In this document: piece by piece, positions 7,206 through 28,653 of the stretch
Layout: every line of letters begins with the position of its first letter
Numbering within the stretch: position 1 is the first letter of the stretch
Assembly: GCA_902773665.1 (NCBI GenBank)
Contig: CACYFF010000009.1
Location: 1-64,000 of the forward strand
Reading direction: 5' to 3'
Source of the DNA: an uncultured Eubacteriales bacterium
GTDB lineage: Bacteria > Bacillota > Clostridia > Peptostreptococcales > Anaerovoracaceae
DNA: 64,000 bases
Position numbers and translations under genes: made by a program
The notes under the pieces: model-generated
What the model was told of the DNA's origin: nothing
Database searches by the model: none
What the model saw: the letters and a program-made list of their open reading frames with translations, nothing else

Positions 7206-7208
7206 CTC

Positions 7209-9861: not shown

Positions 9862-9903
9862 TCATTGCAGAGAGATCTGCGGAAAAAAGAGGTGTCGACA
9901 AGG

Positions 9904-10971
9904 ATGAAACTGACAAAAACCACAGGTAAAGAGATCCTGCTGGGCAGCTGGTTCCTGGGTGGCGGAGGCGGTGGCCTTCCCGAAGGGGGCGAAGCGGTTC
10001 TGGAGCAGGTGCTGCAGACCGGCGAGGTAGTCTTCCGGGACGTGGCGGAGCTGGCCGATGACGAGGTCATCGTGACGGCTTCTCTGGTGGGTTCGCCTGC
10101 CAGCACCACTTCCTGCATCAAGGACGTACATTACCGCCAGGTCTATGACTGGTTTTGTCTGAACAATCAAAAGCCCCTTTCCGCCGTGGTCACCAACGAG
10201 CCGGGCGGCCACAGCGTCACCAACGGCTGGATGCTTTCGGCCATCACCGGCCTGCCCATGCTGGACGCCGCCTGCAACGGCCGTGCCCACCCCACAGGCG
10301 TCATGGGCGCCATGGGCCTCAACGCCATTCCCGATTACCGGAGCCTGCAGACGGCAGCCGGCGGCGATGGCCCCCGGGAGATCGGCATCACCGCCACCGG
10401 AACGGTGGACGGCACCTCTCAGATGGTGCGGATGGCAGCGGTACAGGCCGGCGGTTATGTGACCGTCCTGCGCAACCCGGTAACGGCTGCTTATTTCCGG
10501 GAAAACGCCTCGGTGGGCGTGGTTTCCCAGGCACGGATGATCGGTCAACACTGGCAGCAAAGCATGGGAGATCTGCCCACCCTGCTGCAGACACTGAAGG
10601 CGCTTTTGAACTGCACCCTGCTGGGCGAAGGCCGGATTCGGGCCATTGATCTGCAGATGTCCGGCGGCTTTGATGTGGGCACCTTCACGCTGGAAACGGC
10701 GGGAGCGCCGCTGGAAGTCACCGTTATGAACGAATACATGACGGCCCAGCGGGAGGGCGCCCGACTGGCGACCTTCCCCGATCTGATCGCCGTGATTGAT
10801 ACCCAAAAGCGCCTGCCGGTGTGCTCGGCCCAGCTGAAGCCCGGCATGGATGTGGCAGTGGTCTGTGTCCCCCGGGAAAAGCTGATTCTTGGACGGGGCA
10901 TGAAGCTGCCCGAACTGTTTGTCCCCTGTGAAAACGCCATTGGAAAGCCCATGCGGCAGTATATTTTCTGA
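9904..10971 (+). CDS. DUF917-family protein
   Basis: The 355-residue protein has the DUF917 hallmarks: a Gly-rich N-terminal loop (WFLGGGGGGLPEGG), VTASLVGSPAST, then NEPGGHSVTNGW, DAACNGRAHPTG and a C-terminal FPDLIAVIDT. The family is uncharacterised biochemically. It is often found beside hydantoinases and amidohydrolases, which fits here. It is the first gene of the rightward run and is 18 bases from the D-aminoacylase gene. I start at ATG 9904 behind AAGAGGTG; a longer frame back to 9763 would cross the regulator promoter. Confidence 0.8.
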   Translation: MKLTKTTGKEILLGSWFLGGGGGGLPEGGEAVLEQVLQTGEVVFRDVAELADDEVIVTASLVGSPASTTSCIKDVHYRQVYDWFCLNNQKPLSAVVTNEPGGHSVTNGWMLSAITGLPMLDAACNGRAHPTGVMGAMGLNAIPDYRSLQTAAGGDGPREIGITATGTVDGTSQMVRMAAVQAGGYVTVLRNPVTAAYFRENASVGVVSQARMIGQHWQQSMGDLPTLLQTLKALLNCTLLGEGRIRAIDLQMSGGFDVGTFTLETAGAPLEVTVMNEYMTAQREGARLATFPDLIAVIDTQKRLPVCSAQLKPGMDVAVVCVPREKLILGRGMKLPELFVPCENAIGKPMRQYIF

Positions 10972-10989
10972 CAAAAGGGGGGAACGCCC

Positions 10990-12594: not shown

Positions 12595-12639
12595 TAGACC
12601 CCATATAAATCAAATCCAAACAAAAAGGAGAGTAAGACC

Positions 12640-14181
12640 ATGAAAAAGACATTAGCACTCGTAATCGCCATGATGATGATCGCTGCTCTGCTTGCCGGCT
12701 GCGGCGGCAATGAGCAGGTCTCTGATGGCAAGCGCACCGACATCAACATCCCCCTGGCATCCATCGGTAACACTCTGGACCCCCATGACGCCAGCCTGCT
12801 GGTCGACCAGTACGTTTGTAACCAGATCTACGAGCCCCTGTGGTACGTGGAAGACGACGCTTCTCGGACCCCCCGTCTGGCGACTGGCCTCACCGTCAAC
12901 GATGCCGGTAACGAGATCACCGTTACTCTCCGTGACGACGTCAAGTTCCAGAACGGCGAGCCTCTGAAGGCTTCTGACGTTGTTTACAGCTATCAGCGCT
13001 GCCTGGACAACTACTACAAGACCGCCTCTCTGCTGGGCCTGACCAAGGTGGAAGCCATCAATGACACCACCGTCAAGTTCACTCTGGATGGACCCAACTC
13101 GGTCTTCCTGACTACCATGAATGATGTGTGGATCGTCTCTGAGAAGGCCGTTGAGGAGGCCGGTGATCGCTTCGGCGCGATCCCCACTCTGGCTGGTACC
13201 GGTCCCTATATCCTGGAGTCTTATGACCAGAATACCAAGATCGTCCTGCAGGCCAACAAGGATTATTGGCGTGAGGAAGCCACTATCAAGACCATCAACT
13301 TCACTCCCATGGCCGACTCCTCCACCCAGCTGCTGGCCTTCCAGAACGGCGAGTTCGACTTCTGTAACATCCCCTCTGCCGACTGGAACAACGTAGTCGC
13401 CAGCGGCAACTTCACCACCGTCCAGGCTCCCAGCCGTCACGTCTCCTACATCGGCCTGAACGTCGGTAAGCCCGAGAGCCCCCTGTATGACCTCCGCGTC
13501 CGTCAGGCTATCCACTACTGCATCGACAAGGAATCCATGTGTCTGGTCGCCGCTGACGGCTTTGCCGATGTGGCCACCCACTATGTCCGCGTTGGTTACT
13601 TCGAGGGTGCCGAAGGTAAGGGCACTGACTTCTCCTACAATCCCGAAAAGGCCAAGCAGCTGCTGGCTGAGGCCGGCTATCCCAACGGCTGTGACGTCGG
13701 CACCATCTCCGTCATCAACGGCGGCGGCGGCCGTTACATCAAGATCGCCCAGCTGCTGGAGCAGAACATGAAGGACGTTGGCATCACCTGTAAGATCGAG
13801 ATCGGTGAGACCGGCGCCATGCTGGATGATATTGCACAGAACCACACCTACGATATGTTCATTTCCGGCATCACCTACGGCGTCAGCTTCAGCTTCTATG
13901 ATTCTTACGGCAACTACGGTAAGTTCGACAACGCAGAAGTCCGGCTGTACGAGAACGAAAGCATTGATGCTGACTGGGTCGATGAAATGTTCCAGAAGGC
14001 CCGCTGCGAGATGGATGCCGCCAAGCGTCTGGCCATCTACAACGAGCTGGAAGCCTATGTCCACGATCAGTGCTGCTACCTGGGCGTCATGCACATTCAG
14101 AACCTGTATGCCTGGAACAAGAACCTGGATGCTTACGCTCCTCTGAAAAACTATCTGGTCTATGACTGGAGCTGGAAATAA
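12640..14181 (+). CDS. Peptide-type ABC transporter substrate-binding lipoprotein
   Basis: The 513-residue family-5 solute-binding protein has a lipoprotein signal (MKKTLALVIAMMMIAALLAGC, lipid-anchored Cys21). Typical SBP-5 segments follow: YVCNQIYEPLWYV, LRDDVKFQNGEPL, SDVVYSYQRCLD, GTGPYILESYD, and RQAIHYCIDKESM. It would capture a peptide or peptide-like ligand outside the membrane and deliver it to the permeases encoded next. The ligand cannot be read from sequence, but the flanking D-aminoacylase and M20/M55-type hydrolases suggest D-residue-containing peptides or acylated amino acids. Codon usage is very biased, consistent with strong expression. Confidence 0.92.
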   Translation: MKKTLALVIAMMMIAALLAGCGGNEQVSDGKRTDINIPLASIGNTLDPHDASLLVDQYVCNQIYEPLWYVEDDASRTPRLATGLTVNDAGNEITVTLRDDVKFQNGEPLKASDVVYSYQRCLDNYYKTASLLGLTKVEAINDTTVKFTLDGPNSVFLTTMNDVWIVSEKAVEEAGDRFGAIPTLAGTGPYILESYDQNTKIVLQANKDYWREEATIKTINFTPMADSSTQLLAFQNGEFDFCNIPSADWNNVVASGNFTTVQAPSRHVSYIGLNVGKPESPLYDLRVRQAIHYCIDKESMCLVAADGFADVATHYVRVGYFEGAEGKGTDFSYNPEKAKQLLAEAGYPNGCDVGTISVINGGGGRYIKIAQLLEQNMKDVGITCKIEIGETGAMLDDIAQNHTYDMFISGITYGVSFSFYDSYGNYGKFDNAEVRLYENESIDADWVDEMFQKARCEMDAAKRLAIYNELEAYVHDQCCYLGVMHIQNLYAWNKNLDAYAPLKNYLVYDWSWK

Positions 14182-14243
14182 TTCCAACGACGCGTCCAAC
14201 CACTGATCCAAACCAAGTAATCTGAATCAGCAAGCATCTTTGC

Positions 14244-14274
14244 TGTCTCCCACCGGCTTTGTCGGTGGGAGACA
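14244..14274 (+). promoter_or_regulatory. Intercistronic hairpin after the binding-protein gene
   Basis: A perfect 12-bp stem (TGTCTCCCACCG / CGGTGGGAGACA) with a 7-base loop lies between the binding-protein and permease genes and has no T-run. Such hairpins commonly protect the upstream message and raise binding protein over permease levels. Confidence 0.65.
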
Positions 14275-14302
14275 GTCCACTACCTGAAAAGGAGTATACA
14301 CG

Positions 14303-15235
14303 ATGATTCGATATGTCGTTAAACGTTTTCTAATGCTCATTCCGCTGGTTCTTTGTATCACGTTCGTTGTCTATGGCCTGATGTCATTGGCCCCTGGCGA
14401 TCCCGCGAGTATCATGCTGCCCTCCAATGCTCCGCAGGAACAGAAGGATGCTTTGAACCATAAACTTGGATATGACCGTCCCTTCCTTGTCAAATATGCA
14501 GATTTTGTCTACAATTTGGTGTTCAAGGGCGACTTTGGTATTTCCTATCGAACCCAGCAGCCCATTATCAACGAGTTTAAGACCCGTCTCCCCATTTCCA
14601 TCACACTGGCATTTACCAGCTTGACATTGGCAGCCTGTATCGGCATACCGTTAGGCGTGCTGTCGGCCGTCAAGCAGTATTCTCTGCTGGACACCATCCC
14701 CTCTGTGATGGCATTGACCCTGTCGGCCGTACCATCCTTCTGGTTTGGTATGATGCTGATATACTTCCTTGCGTATAAGCTAGGCCTGTTCCCATCCTAC
14801 GGTATGGGCGGAATCGAGCACTGGGTCCTGCCCACCCTGACCATCGCGGTGGTCTATGCGGCAGAGATCCTGCGTTACACCCGTTCCTCCATGCTGGAGA
14901 CCATCCGCGCAGACTATGTGCGTACCGCCCGAGCCAAGGGCGTTGCCGAGCGTACCGTTATCTGGAAGCACGCCATGAAGAACGGCCTGCTGCCGGTGAT
15001 CACCCTGCTGGGCAGCTCTTTTGGTGCACAGATCGGCGGCGCCATCGTCACCGAAAACCTGTACAATCTGCCTGGTCTGGGAACGCTGACTCTGGTGTCC
15101 ATCAATATGCGTGATACACCTACCGTCGTGGCTACCTCGGTGATTTTCGCCACGCTGTATAATATCATCCTCATTCTGGTGGACCTGATGTACGCCTTCA
15201 TCGATCCCCGTATCAAGGCCAAGTATTCCAGATAA
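14303..15235 (+). CDS. Dipeptide-type ABC permease, DppB-like
   Basis: The 310-residue inner-membrane permease begins MIRYVVKRFLMLIPLV, the usual DppB/OppB start, followed by LAPGDPAS. It has six hydrophobic segments and the cytoplasmic EAA loop near residue 200 (YVRTARAKGVAERTVIWKHA), which docks the ATPases. It also has the LLGSSFGAQIGGAIVTENLYNLPGLG segment characteristic of the B subunit. It forms the channel with the DppC-like protein encoded 12 bases downstream. Confidence 0.93.
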   Translation: MIRYVVKRFLMLIPLVLCITFVVYGLMSLAPGDPASIMLPSNAPQEQKDALNHKLGYDRPFLVKYADFVYNLVFKGDFGISYRTQQPIINEFKTRLPISITLAFTSLTLAACIGIPLGVLSAVKQYSLLDTIPSVMALTLSAVPSFWFGMMLIYFLAYKLGLFPSYGMGGIEHWVLPTLTIAVVYAAEILRYTRSSMLETIRADYVRTARAKGVAERTVIWKHAMKNGLLPVITLLGSSFGAQIGGAIVTENLYNLPGLGTLTLVSINMRDTPTVVATSVIFATLYNIILILVDLMYAFIDPRIKAKYSR

Positions 15236-15247
15236 GGAGGCAGAACG

Positions 15248-16120
15248 ATGAAAAAGAACAGAAGACAATCCCGCGCAATCGTGCGGTTAAAAGAAATCTG
15301 GCGTCGATTCTGCAAAAACAGAATTGCTTTGGCCGGCTTCATTGTATTTATGTGCATCATGATGGTGGTGGTATTTGCCGACGTCATCGTGCCTTATGAA
15401 ATGACGGAAAAACCCTCTCCCCCGGACCGCCTTACGCCCCCCTGCGCCGAGCATCCCTTCGGCACCGATGAGTTCGGACGCAGCGTGTTCGCCCGAATCA
15501 TCCACGCGGCCCCCAACTCGCTGTTCATCGGCTTTACCGTTTCGTTCGGCAGCTTGCTGGTGGGCGGTACCCTGGGCATCGCCTGCGGCTATTTCGGCGG
15601 CAGATTTGACAACCTGATCATGCGTTTCCTGGATATGATCTCCGCTCTGCCCGGAAGCCTGCTGGCCATCGTCATGGTGGCCGTGCTGGGTCCCAATATG
15701 CGCAACCTGATCATCGCGCTGATCGTGGGTCACATTGCCGGCTTTGCCCGAATGTGCCGTTCGGTGGCGCTGAGCATTTCCGAGCAGGAATACATCAAGG
15801 CCGCAAAGGCCGGCGGTTCCAGCGACCTGCGCATCATTTTCCGTCACGCGGTTCCCAACGCGGCCAGTACGCTGATCATCAACACCACCATGAGTATTTC
15901 CGGTGTTATCCTCAGCGCCTGCTCCCTGAGCTTTATCGGTCTGGGCGTTCAGCCTCCCAAGCCCGAGTGGGGCGCTATGCTGAACGACGCGCGACAGTAC
16001 TTTAACGGCAGTCCCTATCTGATGGTCATTCCCGGTCTGGCGATCTTGATCACCTCCATTTCGATCAACATGATGGGCGACGGTCTTCGGGACGCTCTCG
16101 ACCCGAAACTGAAGTCGTAA
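15248..16120 (+). CDS. Dipeptide-type ABC permease, DppC-like
   Basis: This 290-residue partner permease has the DppC pattern: a cytoplasmic basic N-terminus (RFCKNRIALAGF), the HPFGTDEFGRSVFARI motif, and an extracytoplasmic loop before the BPD_transp_1 domain. An EAA loop follows (YIKAAKAGGSSDLRIIFRHAVPNA), then LSACSLSFIGLGVQPPKPEWG. It ends with NMMGDGLRDALDPK, as is standard. It is preceded by AAGGAGG and 12 bases from both neighbours, within one operon. Confidence 0.93.
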   Translation: MKKNRRQSRAIVRLKEIWRRFCKNRIALAGFIVFMCIMMVVVFADVIVPYEMTEKPSPPDRLTPPCAEHPFGTDEFGRSVFARIIHAAPNSLFIGFTVSFGSLLVGGTLGIACGYFGGRFDNLIMRFLDMISALPGSLLAIVMVAVLGPNMRNLIIALIVGHIAGFARMCRSVALSISEQEYIKAAKAGGSSDLRIIFRHAVPNAASTLIINTTMSISGVILSACSLSFIGLGVQPPKPEWGAMLNDARQYFNGSPYLMVIPGLAILITSISINMMGDGLRDALDPKLKS

Positions 16121-16132
16121 GGAGGTCTCTTT

Positions 16133-17131
16133 ATGAGTGAAGTCAATCATACTCCTTTCCTTGAAGTCAAAGATCTCCGGATCATCTATAAGACCGATCT
16201 GGAAACGGTCTATGCTGTCAACGGCATCAGCTTTAAGCTGGAAAAAGGCCAGACCCTGGGTCTGGTAGGTGAGACCGGCGCCGGCAAGACCACCACCGCT
16301 CTGTCGCTGCTGCGGCTGCTGCCCGAGCGCACCGGTAAGGTGGTAGACGGCACCATCACCATCGAGGGTCAGGATCTGGCCACTATGGACGACGAAGCCC
16401 TGCGCCAGATGCGCGGCGGCCAGATCGCCATGATCTTCCAGGATCCCATGACCTCTCTGAACCCCGTCATGACGGTTGCCGATCAGATCGGCGAGTCCAT
16501 CATGATCCACAACCCCGAGTTCAACAAAGAACAGATTCTGGCCCGTGTCAAAGAGGTTCTGAATCTGGTGGGTATCGCCGAAAACCGCGCTTCCGACTAT
16601 CCTCACCAGTTCTCCGGCGGTATGAAGCAGCGCGTGGTCATCGCCATGGCCCTGGCCTGTAATCCCCATCTGATCATCGCGGACGAGCCCACCACCGCTC
16701 TGGATGTTACCATCCAGGCACAGGTGATCTCCATGATGCGCAATCTGCGTGATACCCTGGGCACCGCTATGATCATGATCACTCACGACCTGGGCATCGT
16801 GGCCCAGACCTGTGACAACGTGGCCATCATGTATGCCGGTGAGCTGATCGAAGTGGGCACCGCAGAGGATATCTTCTGCGCCGAAAAGCACCATCCCTAT
16901 ACCGTCGGTCTGTTCGGTTCCATTCCCAACCTGAACGTCAAGGTCGACCGTCTGAGCCCCATCCCCGGCCTGATGCCCGACCCCACCAACCTGCCCGAGG
17001 GCTGCCCCTTCGCCCCCCGCTGCAACAAGTGTATGCCCATCTGTGAGAAACAAAAACCCGGAGTCTATCAGGACGGCGAACACCAGATCCGCTGCCACCT
17101 GTTCACCGGCGCCGCAAAGGGGGGTCAGTAA
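16133..17131 (+). CDS. Dipeptide-type ABC ATPase, DppD-like
   Basis: The 332-residue ATPase has Walker [10 protein letters not shown] near 46, Q-loop [13 protein letters not shown], signature FSGGMKQR, Walker [14 protein letters not shown] and H-loop [13 protein letters not shown]-terminal oligopeptide/dipeptide extension follows, with the Cys cluster ([21 protein letters not shown]) that often binds an Fe-S cluster in this family. It pairs with the DppF-like ATPase; the two start/stop codons abut directly (17131/17132). Confidence 0.94.
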
Positions 17132-18100
17132 ATGGCTGAACTGAAAACTGCTGCTCCGTTGATGGAAGCAAGAAACCTGACCAAGATCTTCAACGTGTCC
17201 CGCGGCATGCTGCACGCGGTGGACGGCGTTGACTTCAAGATCTATCCCGGTCAGACCCTGGGCGTTGTCGGTGAGTCCGGCTGCGGTAAGTCCACCCTGG
17301 GCAATACTATCCTGCGGCTGACCGAGCCCACCTCCGGTGAGATGTACTTCGAAGGTAAGGAATACTCCAAGGTCGGTAAGCGTGAAATGCGCGAAATGCG
17401 CAAGGATATGCAGATGATCTTCCAGGATCCCTATTCCAGTATCGACCCCCGTATGTGCGTGGCCGATATCATTGCCGAGTACATGATCATCAACCGTACC
17501 TATAAGACCAAGCGCGAGATCTATGCCCAGGTGGAAAAGCTGATGGACACCGTCGGCCTGGCCAAGCGCCTGGCAGAAGCCTATCCCCATGAGCTGGACG
17601 GCGGCCGCCGCCAGCGTATCGGCGTTGCCCGCGCTCTGTCCCTGAACCCCAAGTTCATCGTCTGCGACGAGCCGGTTTCCGCTCTGGACGTGTCCATTCA
17701 GGCACAGATCCTCAACCTGCTGATGGACCTGCAGGATGAGTACAAGCTGACCTATCTGTTCATCACCCACAACCTGAGCGTGGTCAAGCAAATTTCCTCC
17801 GACATCATGGTTATGTATCTGGGTAAGTGCGTGGAGCGGGCCACCTCTGACGAGCTGTTCGCCAATCCCCGCCATCCCTATACCAAGGCCCTGCTGTCCG
17901 CCATCCCTGTTCCCGACATTTCCATGCGCAACAAGGAGATCCACCTGATCCAGGGCGAAGTTACCAGCCCCATCAACCCCAAGCCCGGCTGCCGTTTCGC
18001 CGCCCGCTGCCCCATGGCCCGTCCCGAGTGCAGCCAGGAGAGCCCGCACCTGCGTGAAGTGTCGCCCAACCATTTCGTCGCCTGTCATTTGGAGGAATAA
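17132..18100 (+). CDS. Dipeptide-type ABC ATPase, DppF-like
   Basis: The 322-residue second ATPase has Walker A GESGCGKST, Q-loop MIFQDPYSSIDPR, Walker B FIVCDEPVSALDV and H-loop LFITHNLSVV. A C-terminal Cys-containing oligo_HPY-type extension follows (GCRFAARCPMARPEC). The ABC signature is unusual: LDGGRRQR in place of LSGGQRQR, with Asp replacing the conserved Ser. This may lower or asymmetrise ATP hydrolysis in the heterodimer; the partner has a normal signature. That is inference from one residue. Confidence 0.93.
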   Translation: MAELKTAAPLMEARNLTKIFNVSRGMLHAVDGVDFKIYPGQTLGVVGESGCGKSTLGNTILRLTEPTSGEMYFEGKEYSKVGKREMREMRKDMQMIFQDPYSSIDPRMCVADIIAEYMIINRTYKTKREIYAQVEKLMDTVGLAKRLAEAYPHELDGGRRQRIGVARALSLNPKFIVCDEPVSALDVSIQAQILNLLMDLQDEYKLTYLFITHNLSVVKQISSDIMVMYLGKCVERATSDELFANPRHPYTKALLSAIPVPDISMRNKEIHLIQGEVTSPINPKPGCRFAARCPMARPECSQESPHLREVSPNHFVACHLEE

Positions 18101-18103
18101 GTC

Positions 18104-19288
18104 ATGGATCTGTGCTTTTTGAAATCCGCTGCCGCTCAGGCCGCGTCTTATGCCGTCGCCCTTCGCCGTGAGATCCACAGCCATCCCGAACTGTCCGACC
18201 GGGAGGAGCAAACCTCCGCTCTGGTCTGCCGGGAACTGGAACGGCTGAACATTCCCTACACCGTGCTGCCCGGTATGCACGGTGTGGTGGGCATGATCTC
18301 TTCCGGCAGAGAGGGCCCCACGGTGGCCCTGCGGGCCGACATGGACGCGCTGCCCATTCAGGAGCAGACCGGGCTCGCGTTTGCCTCTCAAAAGGAGGGC
18401 GTGATGCACGCCTGCGGCCATGACGTTCATACCGCGGTCCTGTTGGGAACCGCCTCGGTGCTGGCAGAGAACAAGGCGCTTTTCCGTGGCAATGTCAAAC
18501 TGTTTTTCCAGCCCGCGGAAGAAGGGGTTGGCGGCGCGAAGCGTATGATTGCCGCAGGATGCATGGAAAATCCCCATGTAGAGGCCGTGTTCGGCCTGCA
18601 CTCCGCCCCCAGACTGCCGGCGGGAAAAATCGGCACCAAGCCCGGTTGGACCTCTGCCAGCAGCGATGAGATCAAGATCCGTGTGCACGGCAAAAGCGCC
18701 CACGGCGCTTCTCCCGATGAGGGTGTGGACGCCATCTACATCGCCAGCCAGCTGGTGGTGGCCCTCTACGGGCTGATGGCCCGCCGTGTCCGGGGTACCG
18801 ATTCCATCGCCCTGAATGTAGGTAAGTTCCATGCCGGCAACGCAAATAACATCATTTGCGAATGTGCCGAGCTGGAAGCGATGTATCGCACCTTCCGGGC
18901 CGACACCCGTCAGCGCATGAAGCAGGAGATCTGTGACCTGGTGCACAGCCTCTGCAAGGGCTTTGGCGGTTGGGCCGAGATCACCATTGAGGAAGGCTAT
19001 GACGGTCATGCCAACGACGCCGACCGAACCCGCCGGCTGATGGAACTCAGCCGGGAGCTGATGGGGGAGGACGCCTTCGTTTTGCGGGAGACCCCCGATA
19101 TGGGCACCGAAGACTTCTGTTACTTTGGCCAAAAGGCCCCCGCGGTCTTTTTTGACCTGGGTACCGGAAGCGCTCCCGGCCATCCCGTCATGCCCCTTCA
19201 CAGCAGCCGGTTCACCGTGGACGAGGATGCGCTAAATTACGGCATCCTGATGGAAGCGGCGCTGGCGCTGGACTACTTATCTCTGTAA
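18104..19288 (+). CDS. M20-family amidohydrolase/carboxypeptidase
   Basis: This is a 394-residue M20D-type metallohydrolase. Signature motifs are REIHSHPELSDREEQT, ALRADMDALPIQEQTG, HACGHDVHTAVLLG (metal Cys/His cluster), FQPAEEGVGGAKRMI, FGLHSAPRLPAG and a C-terminal MGTEDFCYF. Members remove acyl groups from amino acids or cleave short peptides. The central insertion (about 185-300) is the dimerisation domain, with HGKSAHGASPDEGVDA. It is three bases from the ATPase gene, so it belongs to the uptake operon and probably acts on the imported compound in the cytoplasm. Confidence 0.9.
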   Translation: MDLCFLKSAAAQAASYAVALRREIHSHPELSDREEQTSALVCRELERLNIPYTVLPGMHGVVGMISSGREGPTVALRADMDALPIQEQTGLAFASQKEGVMHACGHDVHTAVLLGTASVLAENKALFRGNVKLFFQPAEEGVGGAKRMIAAGCMENPHVEAVFGLHSAPRLPAGKIGTKPGWTSASSDEIKIRVHGKSAHGASPDEGVDAIYIASQLVVALYGLMARRVRGTDSIALNVGKFHAGNANNIICECAELEAMYRTFRADTRQRMKQEICDLVHSLCKGFGGWAEITIEEGYDGHANDADRTRRLMELSRELMGEDAFVLRETPDMGTEDFCYFGQKAPAVFFDLGTGSAPGHPVMPLHSSRFTVDEDALNYGILMEAALALDYLSL

Positions 19289-19487: not shown

Positions 19488-20767
19488 GTGAAGTCAGCCG
19501 GCAATAGAGGCGTCGTCCATGACCGCCTCCAAGTGCTTCATGTTTATGTATTTCTTGCAGCCCCACTGCGTCCCCGCCACATGGCGGAGCCGTGCACAGA
19601 CCAGCATCAGGGCGGAATTTCCGTCAGGGAACGTCCCCACCACACGGGTCCTGCGGCGGATCTCACGGTTCAGCCGTTCGATCACATTGTTGATCCGGAT
19701 CCGGGTCCAATGTTCATAGGGAAAATCGCAGTAGGTCAGCGTCTCCTCAACACCGTCCTCGACCTTCTTGGCAGCTTCCTTCAGTTTCATGGCGCGCAGC
19801 TCGGCGACCACGGCCTTCGCCTTCTCGCGGGACGCCTTCTTACTCTCCTGGGCGTGGATCGCCTTGAGCATTTTCGCCACAATTTTGACCTTGGATTTAG
19901 GCACAACAGAGAAAAGGTTGCGGTAGAAATGCACCGTGCAGCGCTGGTATTTGGCGTCCGGAAACACCTCGCCCACGGCCTCCAGCATCCCCATGCACTT
20001 GTCGCCCACGATGAGCTTCACGCCGTCCAAGCCGCGTCCGCGGAGCCACTGGAAGAAACTGACCCAACTGGCCTTGTCCTCTTTCATGCCCTCGGCAGCG
20101 CCTAAAACCTCACGGTATCCGTCCTCATTTACCGCAATCGCCACCAAAATCGTAACATTTTCGTACTCTCCACCCCAGTTGCGCCGCAGGTAGATACCGT
20201 CCACATAGACATATGGATATTTGCCGCCCTGCAAAGGGCGGTTCCGCCAATCCTCGATATGGACATAGGCTTTCTTGTTCAGTTCACTGATGGTAGCCGG
20301 AGATACCTTGCTGCCCCACAGGGCTTCCGTAATATCGTCCACACGGCGCACCGAGACACCGGCAAGGTACATCTCGATGAGGGCTTCCTCCACGCGGCTC
20401 TCCCGGCGACGATACCGCTCGATAATGGCGGTCTCGAAGGACACACCCTTGAGTCGGGGCACATGGAGCGTCACGTCTCCGGAGGTGGTGGTAAGGTTCC
20501 GGTCATAGTGGCCGCTGCGGTAACCCTGGCGAGCTTCGCTGCGCTCATAGCGGGCCGCCTGCGTCAGCGACTCCGCCTCCTTCTCCAGCAGCTCGTTCAG
20601 GGTTTCCTCCACACTGCCGCGAACCAATTCCTTGATTTGGCCCTTGATTACTTCCTCGTTTAGCTGTACAATTTTCTCGGACATAGTTTGCTGTCTCCTT
20701 TCAGAATGGTGTGTGGTAACTCCATTCTATCAGAGATCTGCAAACCGTGTCTCTTTTTATTCCTAAA
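19440..20767 (-). mobile_element. IS256-family insertion sequence (ends approximate)
   Basis: The element encodes one transposase on the minus strand. Subterminal sequences resemble each other in inverted orientation: GTTTGCAGAC at about 19,469 on the left, and GGTTTGCAGATC read on the minus strand near 20,745 on the right. Exact tips are not certain. Left flank is the 5' end of the D-aminopeptidase gene; right flank is the 161-bp repeat. No 8-bp target duplication is visible, which suggests loss of adjacent DNA after insertion. Confidence 0.75.
19494..20684 (-). CDS. IS256-family transposase
   Basis: The 396-residue transposase of the mutator/IS256 type appears intact. The DDE pieces are visible: YVYVDGIYLRR (first D), KLIVGDKCMGMLEAV (second D) and NNVIERLNREIRRRTRVVGTFP around the conserved E (C-terminal catalytic Glu). 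The N-terminal DNA-binding region includes RSGHYDRNLTTTSGDVTLHVPR. The start has a clear AAGGAGAC site on the minus strand. The element could still be mobile. Confidence 0.95.
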   Translation of the reverse strand: MSEKIVQLNEEVIKGQIKELVRGSVEETLNELLEKEAESLTQAARYERSEARQGYRSGHYDRNLTTTSGDVTLHVPRLKGVSFETAIIERYRRRESRVEEALIEMYLAGVSVRRVDDITEALWGSKVSPATISELNKKAYVHIEDWRNRPLQGGKYPYVYVDGIYLRRNWGGEYENVTILVAIAVNEDGYREVLGAAEGMKEDKASWVSFFQWLRGRGLDGVKLIVGDKCMGMLEAVGEVFPDAKYQRCTVHFYRNLFSVVPKSKVKIVAKMLKAIHAQESKKASREKAKAVVAELRAMKLKEAAKKVEDGVEETLTYCDFPYEHWTRIRINNVIERLNREIRRRTRVVGTFPDGNSALMLVCARLRHVAGTQWGCKKYINMKHLEAVMDDASIAG

Positions 20768-20928
20768 AAGCGGATAATAAATGACTCATAAAACACGAAA
20801 GCGTAAAAAATATGATCAGAATTATCGCTTTTTATTTTTGCGATCAATGGCTGATAATCGTTTAAATTTCAAGCATTGTTGGCTTTTGATCTCTTGAAAA
20901 TGTAGTCAAGATGTTAATACGGCGCACG
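20768..20928 (+). repeat. 161-bp direct repeat, right copy, at the cpaF junction
   Basis: This is the second copy of the repeat at 5,167-5,327 (five mismatches, no gaps). Its last bases, ACGGCGCACG, run straight into the cpaF reading frame as T-A-H-D-G-S. It is therefore the element-chromosome boundary: bases to the left are element, bases to the right are host. The repeat's left edge is set by the IS256 insertion. Confidence 0.85.
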
Positions 20929-21260
20929 ACGGATCGCTCTCCACGGGTCACGCAAATTCCGTACGGGGCATGATCGGCCGTCTGGAGACGATGCACATCT
21001 CCTCGTCGGGATTTCCGGCGGAATCGGTCCGCGCACAGATCGCGGAGGCGATCGATATTTTCGTTCATCTGGCCCGTACGCCGGACGGACACCGGCGCGT
21101 CGTGGAGATATGCGAATGCGCCGGCGTAAAGGACGGGGAGATCGCGCTGAATCCTCTGTACTGCTACGATCCCGAGAAGGGACTGGTCTTTACGGGAAAT
21201 CCGCTCATCCGCGTCGCGAAACTGAAACTGCACGGACTTTCGGAGGAGGTCGAGCCATGA
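20922..21260 (+). pseudogene. cpaF: 3' part of Tad pilus ATPase gene (cpaF/tadA), interrupted
   Basis: The open frame from the repeat core encodes the final 112 residues of a CpaF/TadA secretion ATPase: AHDGSLSTGHANSV, then MIGRLETM, RAQIAEAIDIFVHLAR and RRVVEICECAGV. These form the C-terminal part of the ATP-binding domain after Walker B. Walker A, Walker B and the N-terminal domain are missing and would lie left of the inserted elements, outside the window. Without precise excision the pilus motor cannot be made. The TGA overlaps the next ATG (ATGA). Confidence 0.88.
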
Positions 21261-22000
21261 CGGATTACGCTGTCTACAGCCCCGGGAAAAGGGAACGCAT
21301 CCGCTACTATCTTACGGCCTGTCCGCTGCTGATGCTGCTGGGGCTGCTGTTTTACCGGCATATCGCCGCGGCAGCAGTGTGCGCCGCACTGGCCGTTCCG
21401 CTGGAGCGTTTCTACCGGCAGCACATGGCGCACGAACGCAGACAGAGACTGCTGGAAGGGTTCCGGGATGCGCTCTATACGATCTCCGCTTCCGTCGCAG
21501 CAGGGCGCTCCATGCCAGCGGCGCTGGAAGACGCCGCGATGCAGTCGGAGGCTTCCTACGGTGTGGAAGCGGATATCACGGGCGAACTGCGCAGCATCGT
21601 GGACAGCTACCGTTCGGTCCACGGAGACCCTGCGGAGCTGCTGACCGATCTCGGAAAACGGAGCGGTCTGGCGGAGATCGCGCTGTTCGCATCGTCTTAC
21701 GCGATCTGCCGCCTCTGCGGCGGCGATCTGGAAGACGTCTGCTTAAAGAGCGCTTCTCTGCTTTTGGATAAACTGGCGTTCCGCAGCGAAACGGACAGCC
21801 TGATGGCGCAGAAAAAACTGGACATTCTGCTGCTTCTGTCGCTGCCGCTGCTGATGCTCGTCTTTTTAAACCTGACGGCGTTCAGCTATATCGCCGTATT
21901 GTACACGAGCGCTGCCGGCAGGCTCCTGATGAGCATGTGCCTGGCGGCGATAGGAGGTGCCTTGTATTGGAGCATCCGCATCATCGACGTCGAATTGTAG
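21257..22000 (+). CDS. tadB: Tad pilus inner-membrane platform protein, TadB-like
   Basis: This 247-residue T2SSF-type protein has two hydrophobic segments near residues 16-45, then a cytoplasmic domain with the family feature FRDALYTISASVAAGRSMPAALEDA. The C-terminal part includes KKLDILLLLSLPLLMLVFLNL and another hydrophobic stretch. TadB and TadC form the platform on which the CpaF ATPase assembles Flp pili. GGAGGAGG stands just 5' and the start overlaps the cpaF stop by four bases. Gene symbol is by position and family, not by close identity. Confidence 0.8.
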   Translation: MTDYAVYSPGKRERIRYYLTACPLLMLLGLLFYRHIAAAAVCAALAVPLERFYRQHMAHERRQRLLEGFRDALYTISASVAAGRSMPAALEDAAMQSEASYGVEADITGELRSIVDSYRSVHGDPAELLTDLGKRSGLAEIALFASSYAICRLCGGDLEDVCLKSASLLLDKLAFRSETDSLMAQKKLDILLLLSLPLLMLVFLNLTAFSYIAVLYTSAAGRLLMSMCLAAIGGALYWSIRIIDVEL

Positions 22001-23307
22001 GACCGTTGGCCGCAAAACTGCGAAGAGTGGGAGAGATCCTGCGGCAGAAAGACGAGCAGGCTCTCGAAGGGTATGCGTTTCTGCAGCAGGCAGGGGAGGA
22101 TGTTTCATCCGAACTGGACCGTCTGCAGAAACGGCTTGGCCGGTTGCTCCTGTTCTGCGCGGGAACGTGTCTGCTGTTATTTCTGCTTGCCGCGCTTATC
22201 GGCAGACAGGATGCAGGTTTGGAAATGCTGCTGCAGAGACCGTCCATTACAGAAGACGATGCCTATGCGGACGTGTGCGTTACGCTTCAGTGGCAGGAGG
22301 CTTCCTGGAAGCAGGACGTCCGGCTGGACGTGCCGAGACAGGAGATCTCCGCCAAAGATGCGCGCGCTCTGTTCGAACGCTGCCGGCAGTGGCTCGAAAC
22401 GGAGGTGTTCGGCAGCCGTCAGGATCTGGGAAGGGTCACCGGGGATCTGAAACTGCCGCTGCAGGACGAGACGGGCCTCGTCGCGATAGGCTGGAGCAGT
22501 TCCGACCCCTCGCGCATCGCAGAGGACGGCCGCGTGAACCTGACAGGCGTAAGGGACGGAGAGTCTGTGGAGCTCGCCGCCTCGCTGCAGGCGGGTGATC
22601 ACGGTGCGGTATTTGCGCCGTCTGCGGCGAAAGATCTGACGCCTTCGCTGCAATATGAGGCGGAAGAGATGCTGCAGCAGCTGCCGGAGCTCCTGACAGA
22701 GGTTCGCCAGGAACTGCCGGAAAAGACGCCCGGCGGCGCTGATGCGGACTGGGTCCTCAAAAGAGGAGGACTTCCCTGGGAGATCGCAGGCGTCTTCTTT
22801 CTTGCGGCTGTCTTTCTCGTCTTCAGCCGGACAGACTCCCTGAAAAAACACCTGAAAGAGCGGAAGGCAGCATTCGAGCAGGAGATCCCGAACATGAGCC
22901 TTCAGATGATCCTGCTTCTGAACGCCGGCCTCACGGTGGAAGGGTCGTTTCAGCGTCTCGTGCAGGAGAACCGGGACAGGGACCATCCGCTGTACCGGGC
23001 GCTTTGCTCGCTGGACGCGGAGAGCCGGGCAACGAATCTGCCGTTCGTGAACGCGTTGTATGTCTATGCGCGGCAGAGCGGCATCCGGGATCTCATCCGC
23101 TTCTCGTCTCTGGCGCTGGATTGCAGCGGACGGGGCGCGGAACTGTCCGAAAAGCTGGACCGGGAGCGGCAGCAGCTCTGGAATGTCCGGCTCAATCAGG
23201 CGAAAGCCAGAGCGAAGGAAGCCGAGACGAAACTCTGTCTGCCGCTGATGATATTGCTGCTGGTGCTGGTGGTGATCGCCATCGCGCCGGCTTTGATGGA
23301 AATGTAG
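21967..23307 (+). CDS. tadC: Tad platform protein, TadC-like, with extra extracytoplasmic domain
   Basis: The protein has about 446 residues from a TTG start at 21967, chosen because AGGAGG lies nine bases upstream and no ATG is available. Order: short cytoplasmic helix, membrane segment (about 57-78), about 190 residues of soluble domain (WSSSDPSRIAEDGRVNLTG is Ig-like in character), and a second membrane segment near 273-290. Then comes a T2SSF domain (PNMSLQMILLLNAGLTVEGSFQRL) and a C-terminal membrane helix. Ordinary TadC is about 300 residues without the inserted domain. It overlaps tadB by 34 bases. Confidence 0.8.
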   Translation: MEHPHHRRRIVGPLAAKLRRVGEILRQKDEQALEGYAFLQQAGEDVSSELDRLQKRLGRLLLFCAGTCLLLFLLAALIGRQDAGLEMLLQRPSITEDDAYADVCVTLQWQEASWKQDVRLDVPRQEISAKDARALFERCRQWLETEVFGSRQDLGRVTGDLKLPLQDETGLVAIGWSSSDPSRIAEDGRVNLTGVRDGESVELAASLQAGDHGAVFAPSAAKDLTPSLQYEAEEMLQQLPELLTEVRQELPEKTPGGADADWVLKRGGLPWEIAGVFFLAAVFLVFSRTDSLKKHLKERKAAFEQEIPNMSLQMILLLNAGLTVEGSFQRLVQENRDRDHPLYRALCSLDAESRATNLPFVNALYVYARQSGIRDLIRFSSLALDCSGRGAELSEKLDRERQQLWNVRLNQAKARAKEAETKLCLPLMILLLVLVVIAIAPALMEM

Positions 23308-23321
23308 AACAGGAGGAAAGT

Positions 23322-23495
23322 ATGGACCGTTTGCTCGTTGGGATCGAAACAAAACTCAAGGCGCAGGAGGGCATGGAATTGGTGCAGGTCGCGATCCTGA
23401 TCGCCATCGCCGTCTTTTTAGGTCTTATCTTCAAGGATAAGATCGGAAAGTTTGTCAACAATGTATTTGGAGACCTTCTTAAGGCGGATTTCTGA
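23322..23495 (+). CDS. Flp-like small pilin
   Basis: The 57-residue protein starts MDRLLVGIETKLKAQ, followed by EGMELVQVAILIAIAVFLGLI and a short amphipathic tail. A basic leader, Gly, Met-Glu and a long hydrophobic helix is the class IVb (Flp) prepilin layout, with processing expected after the Gly. AGGAGG precedes ATG 23322. It would be the major or a minor pilus subunit. No prepilin peptidase is present in this window. Confidence 0.72.
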   Translation: MDRLLVGIETKLKAQEGMELVQVAILIAIAVFLGLIFKDKIGKFVNNVFGDLLKADF

Positions 23496-23709
23496 TCCGT
23501 CCGGCAGCGCAATCGTGGAGGCTGCGCTGGTCTTTCCGCTGGTCGTACTGCTGCTGACCGCGATCATCGGACTGTCGCTGCAGGTGTTGGCCGGAACGGA
23601 GGCGGATGCTTCACGCCACAGGGAAGAAGCGAAGGAAGAACTGGAGCCGAAATTGCTGGAGGTGGAGAACGTGCTGCGGGGAGTGTGGCTGATGGATGAA
23701 GAAGAATAG
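23461..23709 (+). CDS. TadE-like pseudopilin
   Basis: This is an 82-residue protein with the TadE signature GSAIVEAALVFPLVVLLLTAIIGL (residues about 14-37), an N-terminal membrane helix after a short basic leader, then an acidic tail. TadE-like proteins are minor pseudopilins of Tad systems. I start at ATG 23461, in frame with an earlier TTG. It overlaps the pilin gene upstream and the next gene downstream, so the series is translationally coupled. Confidence 0.75.
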   Translation: MYLETFLRRISDPSGSAIVEAALVFPLVVLLLTAIIGLSLQVLAGTEADASRHREEAKEELEPKLLEVENVLRGVWLMDEEE

Positions 23710-25018
23710 CGGATTTTCGTCGATCTACGTCTTGCTGTGCCTCTCTTCCCTTGTCCTGTTTTTGCTGTGCGTCTGTGAACTGTGCAGCGGATACGCTGCC
23801 GGCAGCATCTGCGAAAACGTCTGCCTCGTAGCCGGCAAGTCCGTGCTGTCCGAATATCAGCCGGACCTGCAGCGGCGGTACGGCGTGTTTGCGGTCACAG
23901 CCTTTCCCCAGAAACTGGAGCCCTTAAACGCATTCTATATCCGGCAGAACCTCAACGGGACGTCTCTGCTGATCCGGCCAAAACTCAGAGAGTGCACCGT
24001 TTCCTGCGAAGAGACGCAGGGACTGGATGTGGAGAGTCTGGCGGATCAGATCGATACGTTAGGTCTGATGATGCTGGGAAAGGATGCGTTGGACGAGACC
24101 GGCGCGCTCCGGCTGCTGAAGGAACTGCTGGATCCGCTGGAGAACAGGGAGGACAAAGAGGCTGCCAAACAGGTGAAAGATCTCCCCCCGCCGTCCCCGG
24201 AGGGGCAGTCTGGAAAGTCCCCGGCGGAACTGATGCGGGAATACGACGATGCGATGCATCCGGATCTCGGGGAACACGAAGGGCGCAGCCTGGTGAGCGC
24301 ACACAAGGAGCAGCTGCCGACCCGTCTTCTGGACGTGCGTCCTTCGTCCTCTCTGCTGAAATACGCCGCGTCCGCACTGCTGCAGGACGGGTTGTCTGTC
24401 GGTGCGCTGCTGCAGTCCCGCTACGTAGTCTCCGTATGCTCGGATCTGCTGCACCAGAGAGACGATACGGTTCTGGGCCTTGAAACGGAATACGTGCTGT
24501 TCGGCAGGGATTCCGACCGGGAAAACGAGGCGGAGATGAAAGATGCGCTGTTCAAGATCCGGATGGCGGTCGATCTGGCGCGAAACCTCAGAAACGAGAC
24601 GAAACTATCGACATACGCGGCGGCTGCCGCTGCCTTTCCCGCTGTGCCGCAGCCCCTGGCTGTGCTTATCCTGGCCGCGATCGACGCGGCCGTGCAGGCG
24701 GAAGGGGAAGTGCAGACGCTCTGCGGCGGCGGATTCGTTGCCATAGCGCCGGGCAGTGGAGAACAGCAGGGCCGATTCGGCACCTACCGGGATTACGCCA
24801 TGCTGCTGCTCCTCCTGCTGCCGCAGCAGACGCGGCTCGCCCGCCTGATGGACATGATGCAGGCCGACGTCGCATACATGGACGGCGCCTCCTTTGCGTT
24901 CCGGGATTATTGTTATGGGTTTGTTTTGCATGCGGAATTCGAAAAGAAAAGTTTTCTCCCGGTCCTTTCCGGGCCGCTGCGCCATGGGACGGTGGAACAG
25001 GCGCATGTCTACCGGTGA
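23696..25018 (+). CDS. DUF5702-type Tad-associated protein
   Basis: This 440-residue protein has one N-terminal membrane helix (SSIYVLLCLSSLVLFLLCVCEL) and a large extracytoplasmic part. The helix after a short leader resembles TadE/TadG pseudopilins. The rest has Ala/Leu-rich helices, a Pro-rich linker near 165 (PPPSPEG), and a C-terminal region with a GYVFHAEFE-like segment. The layout matches DUF5702 proteins, which occur in Tad loci of Clostridia and have unknown function. It overlaps tadE by 14 bases. Confidence 0.7.
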   Translation: MKKNSGFSSIYVLLCLSSLVLFLLCVCELCSGYAAGSICENVCLVAGKSVLSEYQPDLQRRYGVFAVTAFPQKLEPLNAFYIRQNLNGTSLLIRPKLRECTVSCEETQGLDVESLADQIDTLGLMMLGKDALDETGALRLLKELLDPLENREDKEAAKQVKDLPPPSPEGQSGKSPAELMREYDDAMHPDLGEHEGRSLVSAHKEQLPTRLLDVRPSSSLLKYAASALLQDGLSVGALLQSRYVVSVCSDLLHQRDDTVLGLETEYVLFGRDSDRENEAEMKDALFKIRMAVDLARNLRNETKLSTYAAAAAAFPAVPQPLAVLILAAIDAAVQAEGEVQTLCGGGFVAIAPGSGEQQGRFGTYRDYAMLLLLLLPQQTRLARLMDMMQADVAYMDGASFAFRDYCYGFVLHAEFEKKSFLPVLSGPLRHGTVEQAHVYR

Positions 25019-25790
25019 CCCCGAGAGCGGTTCGCTGATCGTGGACGCCGCCATCTGCCTTCCCATTTTTCTGATCGCAGCGGGGCTTCTGATGCTCCTG
25101 CTGATGCAGGCGGGAACGGAGGATACGGTGGTGCGGGCTGCTGCGGATGCCAGCCTGACCTGCGTGGAAGCTGCTGCCGGTATGGAGGCCGTGGAGGCCG
25201 GCATTGCCGAAGATGTGCTGCAGGGCGCTTTTTATGCGGGAAAACTGTACGCCTATCTGAGCAAGGAATGGGACGACGGTCCGGACGTCTGGGTGACGGG
25301 TTTCCTGACAGATCAGAGGAGCCTGGCAGCCGGAAACCTTCGCATCGATCATCTGGTGCGCACCACGGTGACGACGCGAAGGAAAGCGCTGCATCCGCTG
25401 GGCAAGACGGAAGGCATTCTGTCGCTTCGCACGTTTTTATTCCGCCCCTGGGTCGGGGAGTCCAGGCAGGATACGCAGATGGACGATACGCGGGTCTACG
25501 TGTTTCCGAAATATGGGGAAAGGTATCACGCATACGGCTGCCGCATCATGAAGGAAGGCAGCGTGGAAGCGGTCCTCACGGAACAGTTGAAGCGCCGCTA
25601 CGCAGCCTGCAAGACCTGCAGACCTTCTTCGCTGCCGTACGGCAGCCTGGTCTTTCTGTTCTCGAAAGGATCGCGGGTCTATCACAGAAAAGAATGCCCC
25701 TGCATTACGAAGTACTACGTGAGCATGCCGAAAGGCGAAGCCGTCGCGGAAGGGTATACGCCTTGCCTGTTCTGCCAGGAGGGACTGTGA
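25005..25790 (+). CDS. Second TadE-like protein with two His/Cys metal-binding-like motifs
   Basis: The protein has about 261 residues from ATG 25005; longer frames to 24894 lie inside the upstream gene. The N-terminal pseudopilin helix is SGSLIVDAAICLPIFLIAAGLL. The C-terminal third holds two copies of a pattern. The first is YHAYGC ... AACKTC and the second is VYHRKECPCI ... YTPCLFC, that is Y-H-x3-C, about 20-25 residues, then C-x2-C. This resembles small metal-binding modules seen in nuclease-associated proteins and is unusual on a pseudopilin. The stop overlaps the next start (TGATG). Confidence 0.7.
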   Translation: MSTGDPESGSLIVDAAICLPIFLIAAGLLMLLLMQAGTEDTVVRAAADASLTCVEAAAGMEAVEAGIAEDVLQGAFYAGKLYAYLSKEWDDGPDVWVTGFLTDQRSLAAGNLRIDHLVRTTVTTRRKALHPLGKTEGILSLRTFLFRPWVGESRQDTQMDDTRVYVFPKYGERYHAYGCRIMKEGSVEAVLTEQLKRRYAACKTCRPSSLPYGSLVFLFSKGSRVYHRKECPCITKYYVSMPKGEAVAEGYTPCLFCQEGL

Positions 25791-26275
25791 TGCCGGACCA
25801 CATGCTCGCGCTCTGGAGGAGCGGGCGTTGTCCGTTTCTCGTCCCCGCCTCCTTCTGGGAAAGCCCGGACGGGCTGCGGATCCGCCTGGATGCGGAAGGA
25901 CTGGTGCAGGTCGCTTCCTATGCGGCCGCCTGCCCGGATGGACTGGAGGAAGGGTTCTGTCTGCTCCTGACTTCTCTTGCGTCAGCTGCCCGCGCATTCG
26001 CCTCGCTGCAGCAGTGGCTTGCCGATCCCGCTTATATCTCGCTGGATCCCTCGCTGCTGTTTTTTGACCGGGATAAGGGAAGCAGCCTGCTGATGTTATC
26101 GGACAGCCCGGACAGCAGGCCGTTTTTGGCGCGCTTTTCGGATCTGTGCCGGGGACTGGGGCCAAGCGGTGCGCTGATCGCAGAACGGCTGGAAGAAGCC
26201 GGCCGGTCCGTCCGGATGGAAGAGCAGGGAACTGCATGCTTTCTCGAAAAATGGCTGCTTCAGATCCTGGCGTAA
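25790..26275 (+). CDS. DUF6382-like protein of the Tad operon
   Basis: At 161 residues it has no membrane segment. The pattern (FLVPASFWESPDG, then LLTSLASAARAF, YISLDPSLLFFDRD, PFLARFSDL) resembles the N-terminal DUF6382 domain that, in other Clostridial Tad operons, is fused to an FHA domain. No FHA domain is present here. It is the last gene of the operon before a strong terminator. A role in regulating pilus assembly through phosphopeptide recognition is therefore not supported for this version. Confidence 0.6.
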   Translation: MPDHMLALWRSGRCPFLVPASFWESPDGLRIRLDAEGLVQVASYAAACPDGLEEGFCLLLTSLASAARAFASLQQWLADPAYISLDPSLLFFDRDKGSSLLMLSDSPDSRPFLARFSDLCRGLGPSGALIAERLEEAGRSVRMEEQGTACFLEKWLLQILA

Positions 26276-26280
26276 CGCAA

Positions 26281-26315
26281 TAGAAAAGGACCGGAGCGCT
26301 TCCGGTCCTTTTCTA
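26281..26315. terminator. Bidirectional terminator between the Tad operon and zinc-ribbon gene
   Basis: A perfect 15-bp stem (TAGAAAAGGACCGGA with its complement) has a 5-base loop, A-rich on the left and T-rich on the right. It serves the rightward Tad operon and the leftward zinc-ribbon gene. Confidence 0.88.
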
Positions 26316-26634: not shown

Positions 26635-28653
26635 ATGAATTATATTATTTCAGTTGCAGAACATGCAGGCTTTTGCTTTGGTGTAAAGCGCGCGGTAGAC
26701 GCAGCGGAGCAGGAGCTGAAACGGGCGAAGGCAGACGGCGTCAAACTGTATTGCCTCGGTTCCCTCATCCACAACAAAGCCGTTACGGAAGATCTGGCGG
26801 AGAAGGGGCTCATCACGATCCGTTCGATCGAAGAGGCGGATCCCGGCAGCCGGGTGCTCATCCGGGCCCACGGGGAGCCGGACAGCACGTATCGGGCTGC
26901 GGAAGCCGCAGGGATCGAGATCCTGGACGAGACATGTCCGTTCGTATACCGCATCCACGACGCGGCGAGAAAAGCAGGAGAAGCCGGACGGCTCGTCTTT
27001 GTCATCGGTGACCCGGATCATCCGGAGGTGAAAGGCATCCTCGGGTCAACGGACCGGGCGGTAGGCGCCTGCGACGATCCGGAGCGCATTGCATATTATG
27101 CAGATCTCTTCCGGGATAAACCAGTCACGGCGCTGGCCCAGACGACGCTCACCCGGGCAAAATTCGATGCCTGCTGCGACGAATTGAAGAAGATCTGCGG
27201 CGACCTTCAGATCGAGGATACCATTTGCAACGCCACGAAACAGCGGCAGGACGCGGCCGCAAAACTTGCGGCAAACTCCGATGCGATGGTGGTGATCGGC
27301 GATAAAACGAGCTCTAACTCCCGCAAGCTATTCGACATCTGTTCACAGAATTGCATATTTACAGTTTTTATCGAAAAATTCGACGATTTACCGTTGCAAG
27401 AAATTTCAAAATATAATAAAATAGGCGTTGCAGCGAGTGCATCCGCACCGCAACAAATTATTTTGGAGGTTATTGCTAACATGAGTGAAGTACTCAAAGA
27501 TCAGAACACAGAAATGAACGAAATGCTCGCCTATATGGACGAGATCGAGAAGTCTCTTAAGCTTCCCGGTAGAGGCGAAGTAGTTACCGGAACGGTAGTA
27601 CAGGTCACGAACGATTACGTCGTAGTAAACCTGGGCTGCAAGAAGGACGGCATGCTGCCGAAGGAAGAGGTCACTCTCGAAGACGGTCAGGATCTTACTG
27701 CAGCATTTAAGGAAGGCGACGAAGTGCAGGCGAAAGTCATCAAGACCGATGACGGCGACGGCAACATCCTCCTTTCCAAGAAAAAGCTTCAGTCCGGCGA
27801 AAACTGGGAAGAGATTACCGCAGCACTGGACAGCAAGGAAGTACTCAACGTTACCGTCCTGAAGGAAGTCAAGGGCGGCGTTATCGCAGCATACAAGGAA
27901 GTTTCCGGCTTCATCCCCATGTCTCAGCTTGCAGACCACTATGTGGAGAACGCCGAGGAATTCATCGGAAAGACCCTGCCGGTCAAGGTCACGAGAGTCG
28001 ACCAGCGCAGAAACAAGGCTGTCTTCTCCCACAAGGCTTTCCTCACCGAAGAGAAGCATAAGAAGATCGCAGAAATTTGGGAGACCCTCAATGTCGGCGA
28101 CGTCGTCGAAGGCAAGGTCATGAGATTCACCGACTACGGCGCATTCGTAGACATCGGCGGCATCGACGGACTGCTCCACATCTCCGAGATCAGCTGGGGC
28201 AAGCTCAGACATCCCCAGGAAGCGCTGGAGATCGGTCAGATCGTCAACGTCAAGATCCTCAGCATGAACCCCGAAAAGGGCAAGATCTCTCTGGGTCTCA
28301 AGCAGAACGCTCCCGAACCCTGGTCCGTCATCGACGAGAACTATCACGAAGGCGACATCGTCAAGGGCAAGGTCGCTCAGATCAAGGAATACGGCGCATT
28401 CGTAGAACTGGCTCCGGGCCTCGACGGTCTGGTGCACATCTCCGAAGTAGCTCATAAGAGAGTCGGCAAGATCTCCGACGAGCTGCAGATCGGCCAGGAG
28501 ATCAATGCGAAGATCCTGGAGATCGACAAGGAGAAGAGAAGAATCTCCCTGTCCATCAAGGCTACGCTGCCTCTCCCCGGTTCCGAGGAAGAAGCGAAGG
28601 CCGAAGCTCCCGCAGAGGAAGCTCCTGCCGAAGAGGCTCCCGCAGAAGCTTAA
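26635..28653 (+). CDS. ispH: IspH (HMBPP reductase) fused to ribosomal protein S1
   Basis: The 672-residue fusion has two parts. Residues 1-280 are IspH, the Fe-S enzyme making IPP and DMAPP in the last step of the MEP pathway; the three cluster cysteines are Cys14, Cys101 and Cys198. From residue 283 there is a four-repeat S1 protein: GEVVTGTVVQVTNDYVVVNL, GGVIAAYKEVSGFIP, GDVVEGKVMRFTDYGAFVDI and GDIVKGKVAQIKEYGAFVEL, then an acidic Ala/Pro/Glu tail. This fusion is known in Clostridia. Met283 (27481) is preceded by GGAGG at 27463-27467, so internal initiation of S1 alone is possible. Confidence 0.95.
   Translation: MNYIISVAEHAGFCFGVKRAVDAAEQELKRAKADGVKLYCLGSLIHNKAVTEDLAEKGLITIRSIEEADPGSRVLIRAHGEPDSTYRAAEAAGIEILDETCPFVYRIHDAARKAGEAGRLVFVIGDPDHPEVKGILGSTDRAVGACDDPERIAYYADLFRDKPVTALAQTTLTRAKFDACCDELKKICGDLQIEDTICNATKQRQDAAAKLAANSDAMVVIGDKTSSNSRKLFDICSQNCIFTVFIEKFDDLPLQEISKYNKIGVAASASAPQQIILEVIANMSEVLKDQNTEMNEMLAYMDEIEKSLKLPGRGEVVTGTVVQVTNDYVVVNLGCKKDGMLPKEEVTLEDGQDLTAAFKEGDEVQAKVIKTDDGDGNILLSKKKLQSGENWEEITAALDSKEVLNVTVLKEVKGGVIAAYKEVSGFIPMSQLADHYVENAEEFIGKTLPVKVTRVDQRRNKAVFSHKAFLTEEKHKKIAEIWETLNVGDVVEGKVMRFTDYGAFVDIGGIDGLLHISEISWGKLRHPQEALEIGQIVNVKILSMNPEKGKISLGLKQNAPEPWSVIDENYHEGDIVKGKVAQIKEYGAFVELAPGLDGLVHISEVAHKRVGKISDELQIGQEINAKILEIDKEKRRISLSIKATLPLPGSEEEAKAEAPAEEAPAEEAPAEA

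Follow-up and report, generated by a model that had tools for sequence, protein, structure and literature searches.

The Tad pilus motor gene cpaF of this bacterium has very probably been split by the integration of a large-serine-recombinase element, with later stacking of elements at the attachment sites. The sequence analysed, here called the window, is a stretch of 64 000 nucleotides (G000:C9:1–64000) from a 2.22 Mb draft genome that is 94% complete and consists of 41 contigs. The features of the window on which the analysis rests are the following.

1413–2539, plus strand: two short resolvase-domain ORFs (1413–2177 and 2246–2539) with partial PF00239 matches
2481–4277, plus strand: large serine recombinase, intact, 598 amino acids (PF00239, PF07508 and PF13408)
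5167–5327, plus strand: RE2, the right end of the first element, directly abutting LE3
5323–7559, plus strand: LE3 and the decayed left part of a second element, with a SymE-like gene (5411–5683) and TraG, helicase and recombinase fragments
7945–19288, plus strand: cargo-like block, 58% GC, with AroM, S-Me-THD-like, amidohydrolase, OppA/B/C/D/F-type peptide transporter and M20 peptidase genes
19494–20684, minus strand: IS256/Mutator-family transposase (PF00872, E = 1.6e-108), inside the element near its right end
20768–20928, plus strand: RE1, element right end, 30% GC, with the inverted half-site GTAGTCAAGATGTTAATACGGC, 98% identical to RE2
20924–20928, plus strand: attR core GCACG, common to the attL on contig C31 (C31:2694) and the inferred empty site
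20925–21260, plus strand: 3′ part of cpaF (tadA), 111 codons plus stop, beginning HDGSLSTGHANS, with the His box and C-terminal domain (PF00437 fragment)
21257–22000, plus strand: tadB (T2SSF), intact
21997–23307, plus strand: tadC (T2SSF), intact
23319–23495, plus strand: Flp1-like pilin gene (PF16982), intact, 87% identical in the congener G005
23452–26275, plus strand: TadE-like gene, DUF5702 protein gene and two further Tad-locus genes, intact

The first true cpaF codon in the window is that of the histidine at 20925. The Thr-Ala codons just before it belong to the element end and not to cpaF, the native uninterrupted motif being STGHDGSLSTGHANS. The initial annotation had placed the boundary within GAHDGSLST; the conserved motif is indeed the target, but the 'GA' of that reading is T-A and derives from the element. 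Its description of a cpaF remnant beside intact tadB, tadC, pilin and pseudopilin genes was borne out, all of these lying in place with intact frames. Compared with the nearest congener, G005, the Tad genes downstream of cpaF are open and full-length with no internal stops, and they show low dN/dS; dS to G005 is about 0.7–1, a divergence too large for dN/dS to be informative about the age of the insertion. A promoter scan from the element end to tadB gave no match near tadB and a single weak plus-strand match at 20644, within the transposase gene. Further downstream, the gene at 26635–28653 encodes a fusion of IspH with a ribosomal protein S1-like domain; it is 97% identical in G005 and adjoins the Tad locus in the congeners examined.

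The other half of the gene was located by a T2SSE search of the genome, which retrieved three places: the fragment in the window, contig C34 and C31:2680–3369. On contig C31, tadZ is accompanied by codons 1–301 of cpaF (C31:2694–3597), beyond which the contig enters the opposite element end. The core GCACG is common to both flanks (attL on C31, attR in the window), and joining them over it yields AGCACAGGGCACGACGGATCG, which codes for STGHDGS. The joined frame comprises 411 codons without internal stops and aligns ungapped with G005 CpaF (357/411 identical). Walker A, Walker B and the His-box region then all lie in one 411-residue frame, with GGTSSGKT at 207, ILVGEVRG at 280, STGHDGS at 298 and STGHANS at 306; following the motif roles of the secretion ATPase family, we take 207 to be Walker A, 280 to be Walker B and STGHANS at 306 to be the His box. 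Because the flanks rejoin exactly and the congener locus is uninterrupted, we infer that C31 and C9 flank one and the same insertion; their continuity is deduced rather than read through, since they are separate draft contigs and the element middle is unassembled. The two halves, the shared core and the 411-codon rejoin strongly support the earlier proposal that a serine-recombinase element entered cpaF and that no intact motor gene is left. The initial annotation had named two findings that would speak against it, another intact cpaF driving the same system and stop codons in the downstream Tad genes; the CpaF query returned no second CpaF in the 94%-complete genome, and re-reading gave no such stops. 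The other PF00437 match, on C34, is PilT-like and is not retrieved by the CpaF query; this PilT-like ATPase is accompanied by pseudopilin-like genes and a gene for a GGDEF-like protein (G000:C34:2451–5924, locus L002). The T2SSE search detected no PilB-type ATPase in the draft genome.

In five congeners (G005, G004, G003, G002 and G007) cpaF is intact and encodes 411–418 amino acids; a sixth, G001, has a contig-edge piece only. The order asparaginase–tadZ–cpaF–tadB–tadC–flp–tadE–…–ispH–rpsA runs without interruption in G005, G003 and G002, and alignment of the GHDG site in the loci of five relatives gives the target site in its empty state.

The insert consists of large-serine-recombinase elements arranged in tandem. 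The right end RE1 recurs at 5167–5327 (RE2) with 98% identity, and C31 carries two left ends at a spacing of 133 bp. The left half-site CGCCGGGCTAACATCTCGACCACA is near-identical to the reversed right half-site CGCCGTATTAACATCTTGACTACA, so that an inverted repeat surrounds the core; symmetric arms of this kind are expected of a serine-recombinase attP (PMC5595907). The central dinucleotide is probably CA (20925–20926). The candidate empty attB is the joined sequence given above and the candidate circular attP is GATGTTAATACGGCGCACGCCGGGCTAACATC; neither junction occurs in the draft contigs of this genome. The 598-residue recombinase contains resolvase, recombinase and zinc-ribbon domains and carries the catalytic-serine motif (YxRVST) as YSRVST at residues 12–17. 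It is likely to be the integrase/excisionase of the element, and we infer that it catalysed the insertion. Near it lie DUF6551, PemK-like and VanZ-like genes together with the two short resolvase-domain ORFs, which are probably degenerate or accessory recombinases. PemK/MazF-like and SymE-like genes are borne by the elements at 729–1148 and 5411–5683 in the window and at C31:2203–2475, the SymE-like gene adjoining two left ends.

The element segments have 43–44% GC, against 57–60% for host DNA. The cargo block, placed between element ends, has a host-like GC content. Its amidohydrolase has congener homologues at 35–39% only, for which reason the block at 7945–19288 is probably acquired DNA. 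Within the whole draft assembly TraG occurs only as the fragment in the second element, with the element middle unassembled; the insert is therefore described as a tandem array of serine-recombinase elements, and a functional conjugative element is not claimed. Present-day mobility of the array appears doubtful. A search of 297 genomes of the family with the recombinase gave a match in G255 alone, so this exact recombinase lineage is rare. As a single-protein query it gave no match in genome_contigs, a scan of viral_contigs likewise gave none, and a two-sequence scan of genome_contigs returned the record of G255 itself and two distant recombinases.

Sequence comparison across the family indicates that the STGHDGS codons of cpaF are a hotspot for mobile elements in other genera too, and the proposal that the conserved motif served as the integration target is upheld by these repeated breaks. 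G005 CpaF was searched against 350 genomes of the family, 320 of which gave a match, and weak or split matches were then re-examined. In G255, a metagenome-assembled genome from goat omasum, the cpaF break falls at the same codons, and the 3′ part of the gene adjoins a recombinase 35–37% identical to that at 2481–4277. The frame of this recombinase (L060:11659–13431, on G255:C1) runs across attR and ends at a stop codon within cpaF; the integrated and the circular form would therefore encode different C-terminal residues. In G293 a second Tad copy starts past a right end, GTCAAGATGCGAATAC..CATGACGG, similar to that of the window, on a contig that also carries a MobC/relaxase-like gene pair (called by eye); this break is probably due to a related serine element. 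In G288 a 3.2 kb insert with a recombinase remnant, read as a prophage remnant, lies between two copies of CATGACGG in a single contig. The cpaF halves of G325 are ∼41 kb apart in one contig. The insertion point of the element between them precedes the serine-element core by a few bases, and the element encodes a relaxase, TraG, a VirB4-like protein and three tyrosine recombinases; G023 has element ends similar to those of G325, and its break is probably the work of a conjugative element of the same kind. At least three types of recombinase thus strike this region of cpaF.

Contig ends fall at the same place. In G131 the N-terminal contig stops and the C-terminal contig begins at the CA (L065, L066); the C-terminal contig of G242 (L069) also begins at the CA, and that of G111 (L070) begins a few bases later. 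These ends at or near the core appear as if empty and integrated copies coexist in the source samples. Eight of 22 cpaF breakpoints lie in codons 295–305 (binomial P about 8e-7 versus a uniform expectation), a value that is approximate, since genomes were selected on the basis of weak matches and the 22 include ordinary contig ends; G293 was left out of this count. A second cluster of breaks lies at about codon 281 (between DRIIV and GE, Walker B), with a 2.5 kb insert in G302:C36 (L072) and two contigs of G442 (L094, L095) meeting at the same bases.

In the course of events proposed here, a large-serine-recombinase element would have entered by attP × attB recombination at the CA in the STGHDGS codons. 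This would have left a promoter-proximal portion of cpaF next to tadZ on C31 and a distal portion next to tadB and the genes after it in the window. Related elements would later have been added in tandem at the att sites; one of them would have acquired the peptide-uptake cargo, and an IS256-type element would have inserted inside the array. Integrated cells would make no complete CpaF, Walker A and B being encoded on one side of the insert and the STGHANS His box and C-terminal domain on the other. The distal Tad genes would also be detached from tadZ and the beginning of cpaF, the promoter scan having given nothing convincing in between. Cells in this state would be expected to lack the pilus. 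If the outermost attL and attR recombined, cpaF would be re-formed exactly, and such excision may be ongoing.

Two readings dispense with this integration. Since the gene is divided between two contigs of a 41-contig draft, a chimeric assembly or a binning error might have attached a foreign contig to cpaF. This is very improbable: C31 and C9 each contain the neighbouring genes to be expected, with identities at congener level, the two flanks fit together to the single base, and the same break occurs in independent genomes, in G288 and G325 within one contig. The gene nearest to the break is the IS256-type transposase, about 170 bp inside the element end, with the serine recombinase (2481–4277) placed deeper in the element, and cpaF might be thought to have been truncated by an IS256-type insertion and an adjacent deletion without any serine element. 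This was rejected and retains a negligible probability, as the right end recurs without the IS at 5167–5327 and the missing part of cpaF is intact on C31 beside the opposite element end.

Given integration of a serine-recombinase element, it may be asked what the insertion does. A regulated switch, in which conditional excision turns Tad pili back on, has precedents (PMC5595907; PMC6597384; compare comK, hlb and gin in gerE) and would suit the exact in-frame restoration, the intact recombinase and the intact downstream genes with low dN/dS; the G131 contigs meeting at the same CA form the pattern that an assembler gives for coexisting integrated and empty copies, although it could have other causes. 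We nevertheless regard such a switch as unlikely here. The genome has no excised junction and its contigs enter the element on both sides, the array is nested, with one decayed member and an IS256-type insertion inside, neither a regulator nor a directionality factor was identified, and dS to G005, at about 0.7–1, is too high for dating a recent insertion. The initial annotation's view that excision would restore the pilus holds at the sequence level, where reversal is exact, but its regulated form goes beyond the direct evidence; its suggestion of recent insertion or regulated excision is likewise weakened, as a nested, decayed and IS-hit array points to long residence no less than to a live switch. 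Somewhat less improbable, but still doubtful, is an intragenomic conflict in which elements gain by breaking the Tad motor, blocking either DNA uptake, through which transformation could remove them, or a phage receptor. It would accord with the variety of recombinases (at least three types) at one region of cpaF, with the ComEC homologue encoded in this genome, with the requirement for Tad/Flp pili in DNA uptake in Micrococcus and Liberibacter (PMC4322843; PMC8513845) and with the model that exists for prophages in comYC, comFA, comM and comK (PMC4774983). Strong DNA conservation of the motif suffices for recurrent targeting, however, with no benefit needed, and a motif made a dependable attB by its conservation, a situation described for other serine recombinases (PMC10083194), would be the plainer reading of the recurrence. 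That the STGHDGS codons are a hotspot shared, throughout a Clostridia-like family, by unrelated elements (serine-recombinase elements, a prophage and a tyrosine-recombinase conjugative element) and that pilus shut-off is itself selected, whether against uptake, against phage or as a reversible switch, is a tentative suggestion.

Conserved genes split by elements are already known, and a Tad ATPase as a hotspot for several elements is unusual. No report of a Tad ATPase as an element target was found in the open-access papers searched, which is weak evidence of absence. Together with the competence genes, the Tad pilus motor would count among the few host machines interrupted again and again by mobile elements at one exact codon. 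Should the elements excise, these bacteria would have their pilus production governed by a mobile element; should they stay in place, the pattern becomes a test of whether elements disable pili used in DNA uptake. Both the recombinase and the att sites are known in enough detail for a direct assay. Diverse large serine recombinases are described as converging on conserved coding sites, with competence genes enriched among the targets; the main text of that study names magnesium chelatase and prolyl isomerase, in contrast to the Tad ATPase here, and the words 'secretion' and 'ATPase' are absent from that main text (PMC10083194). The G325 element, with its Tn554-like trio of tyrosine recombinases, meets cpaF at nearly the same point with another class of recombinase. 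Prophages in comYC and other competence genes (PMC4774983) also target conserved genes for pili and DNA uptake and recur across species. Their target in the comYC case is a competence pseudopilus and a pilin, whereas here it is a Tad system and an ATPase, and unlike those prophages the occupants of the cpaF site include conjugative or mobilizable elements, a prophage remnant and a tyrosine-recombinase element. Closest in kind is gin in gerE of Bacillus cereus (PMC5595907), which is likewise non-phage, uses serine recombinases, splits a coding sequence and is exactly reversible, with a short core inside imperfect inverted repeats as in the cpaF element; its target is a sporulation gene and its excision is demonstrated and developmentally timed, whereas the target here is a pilus motor and excision is putative.
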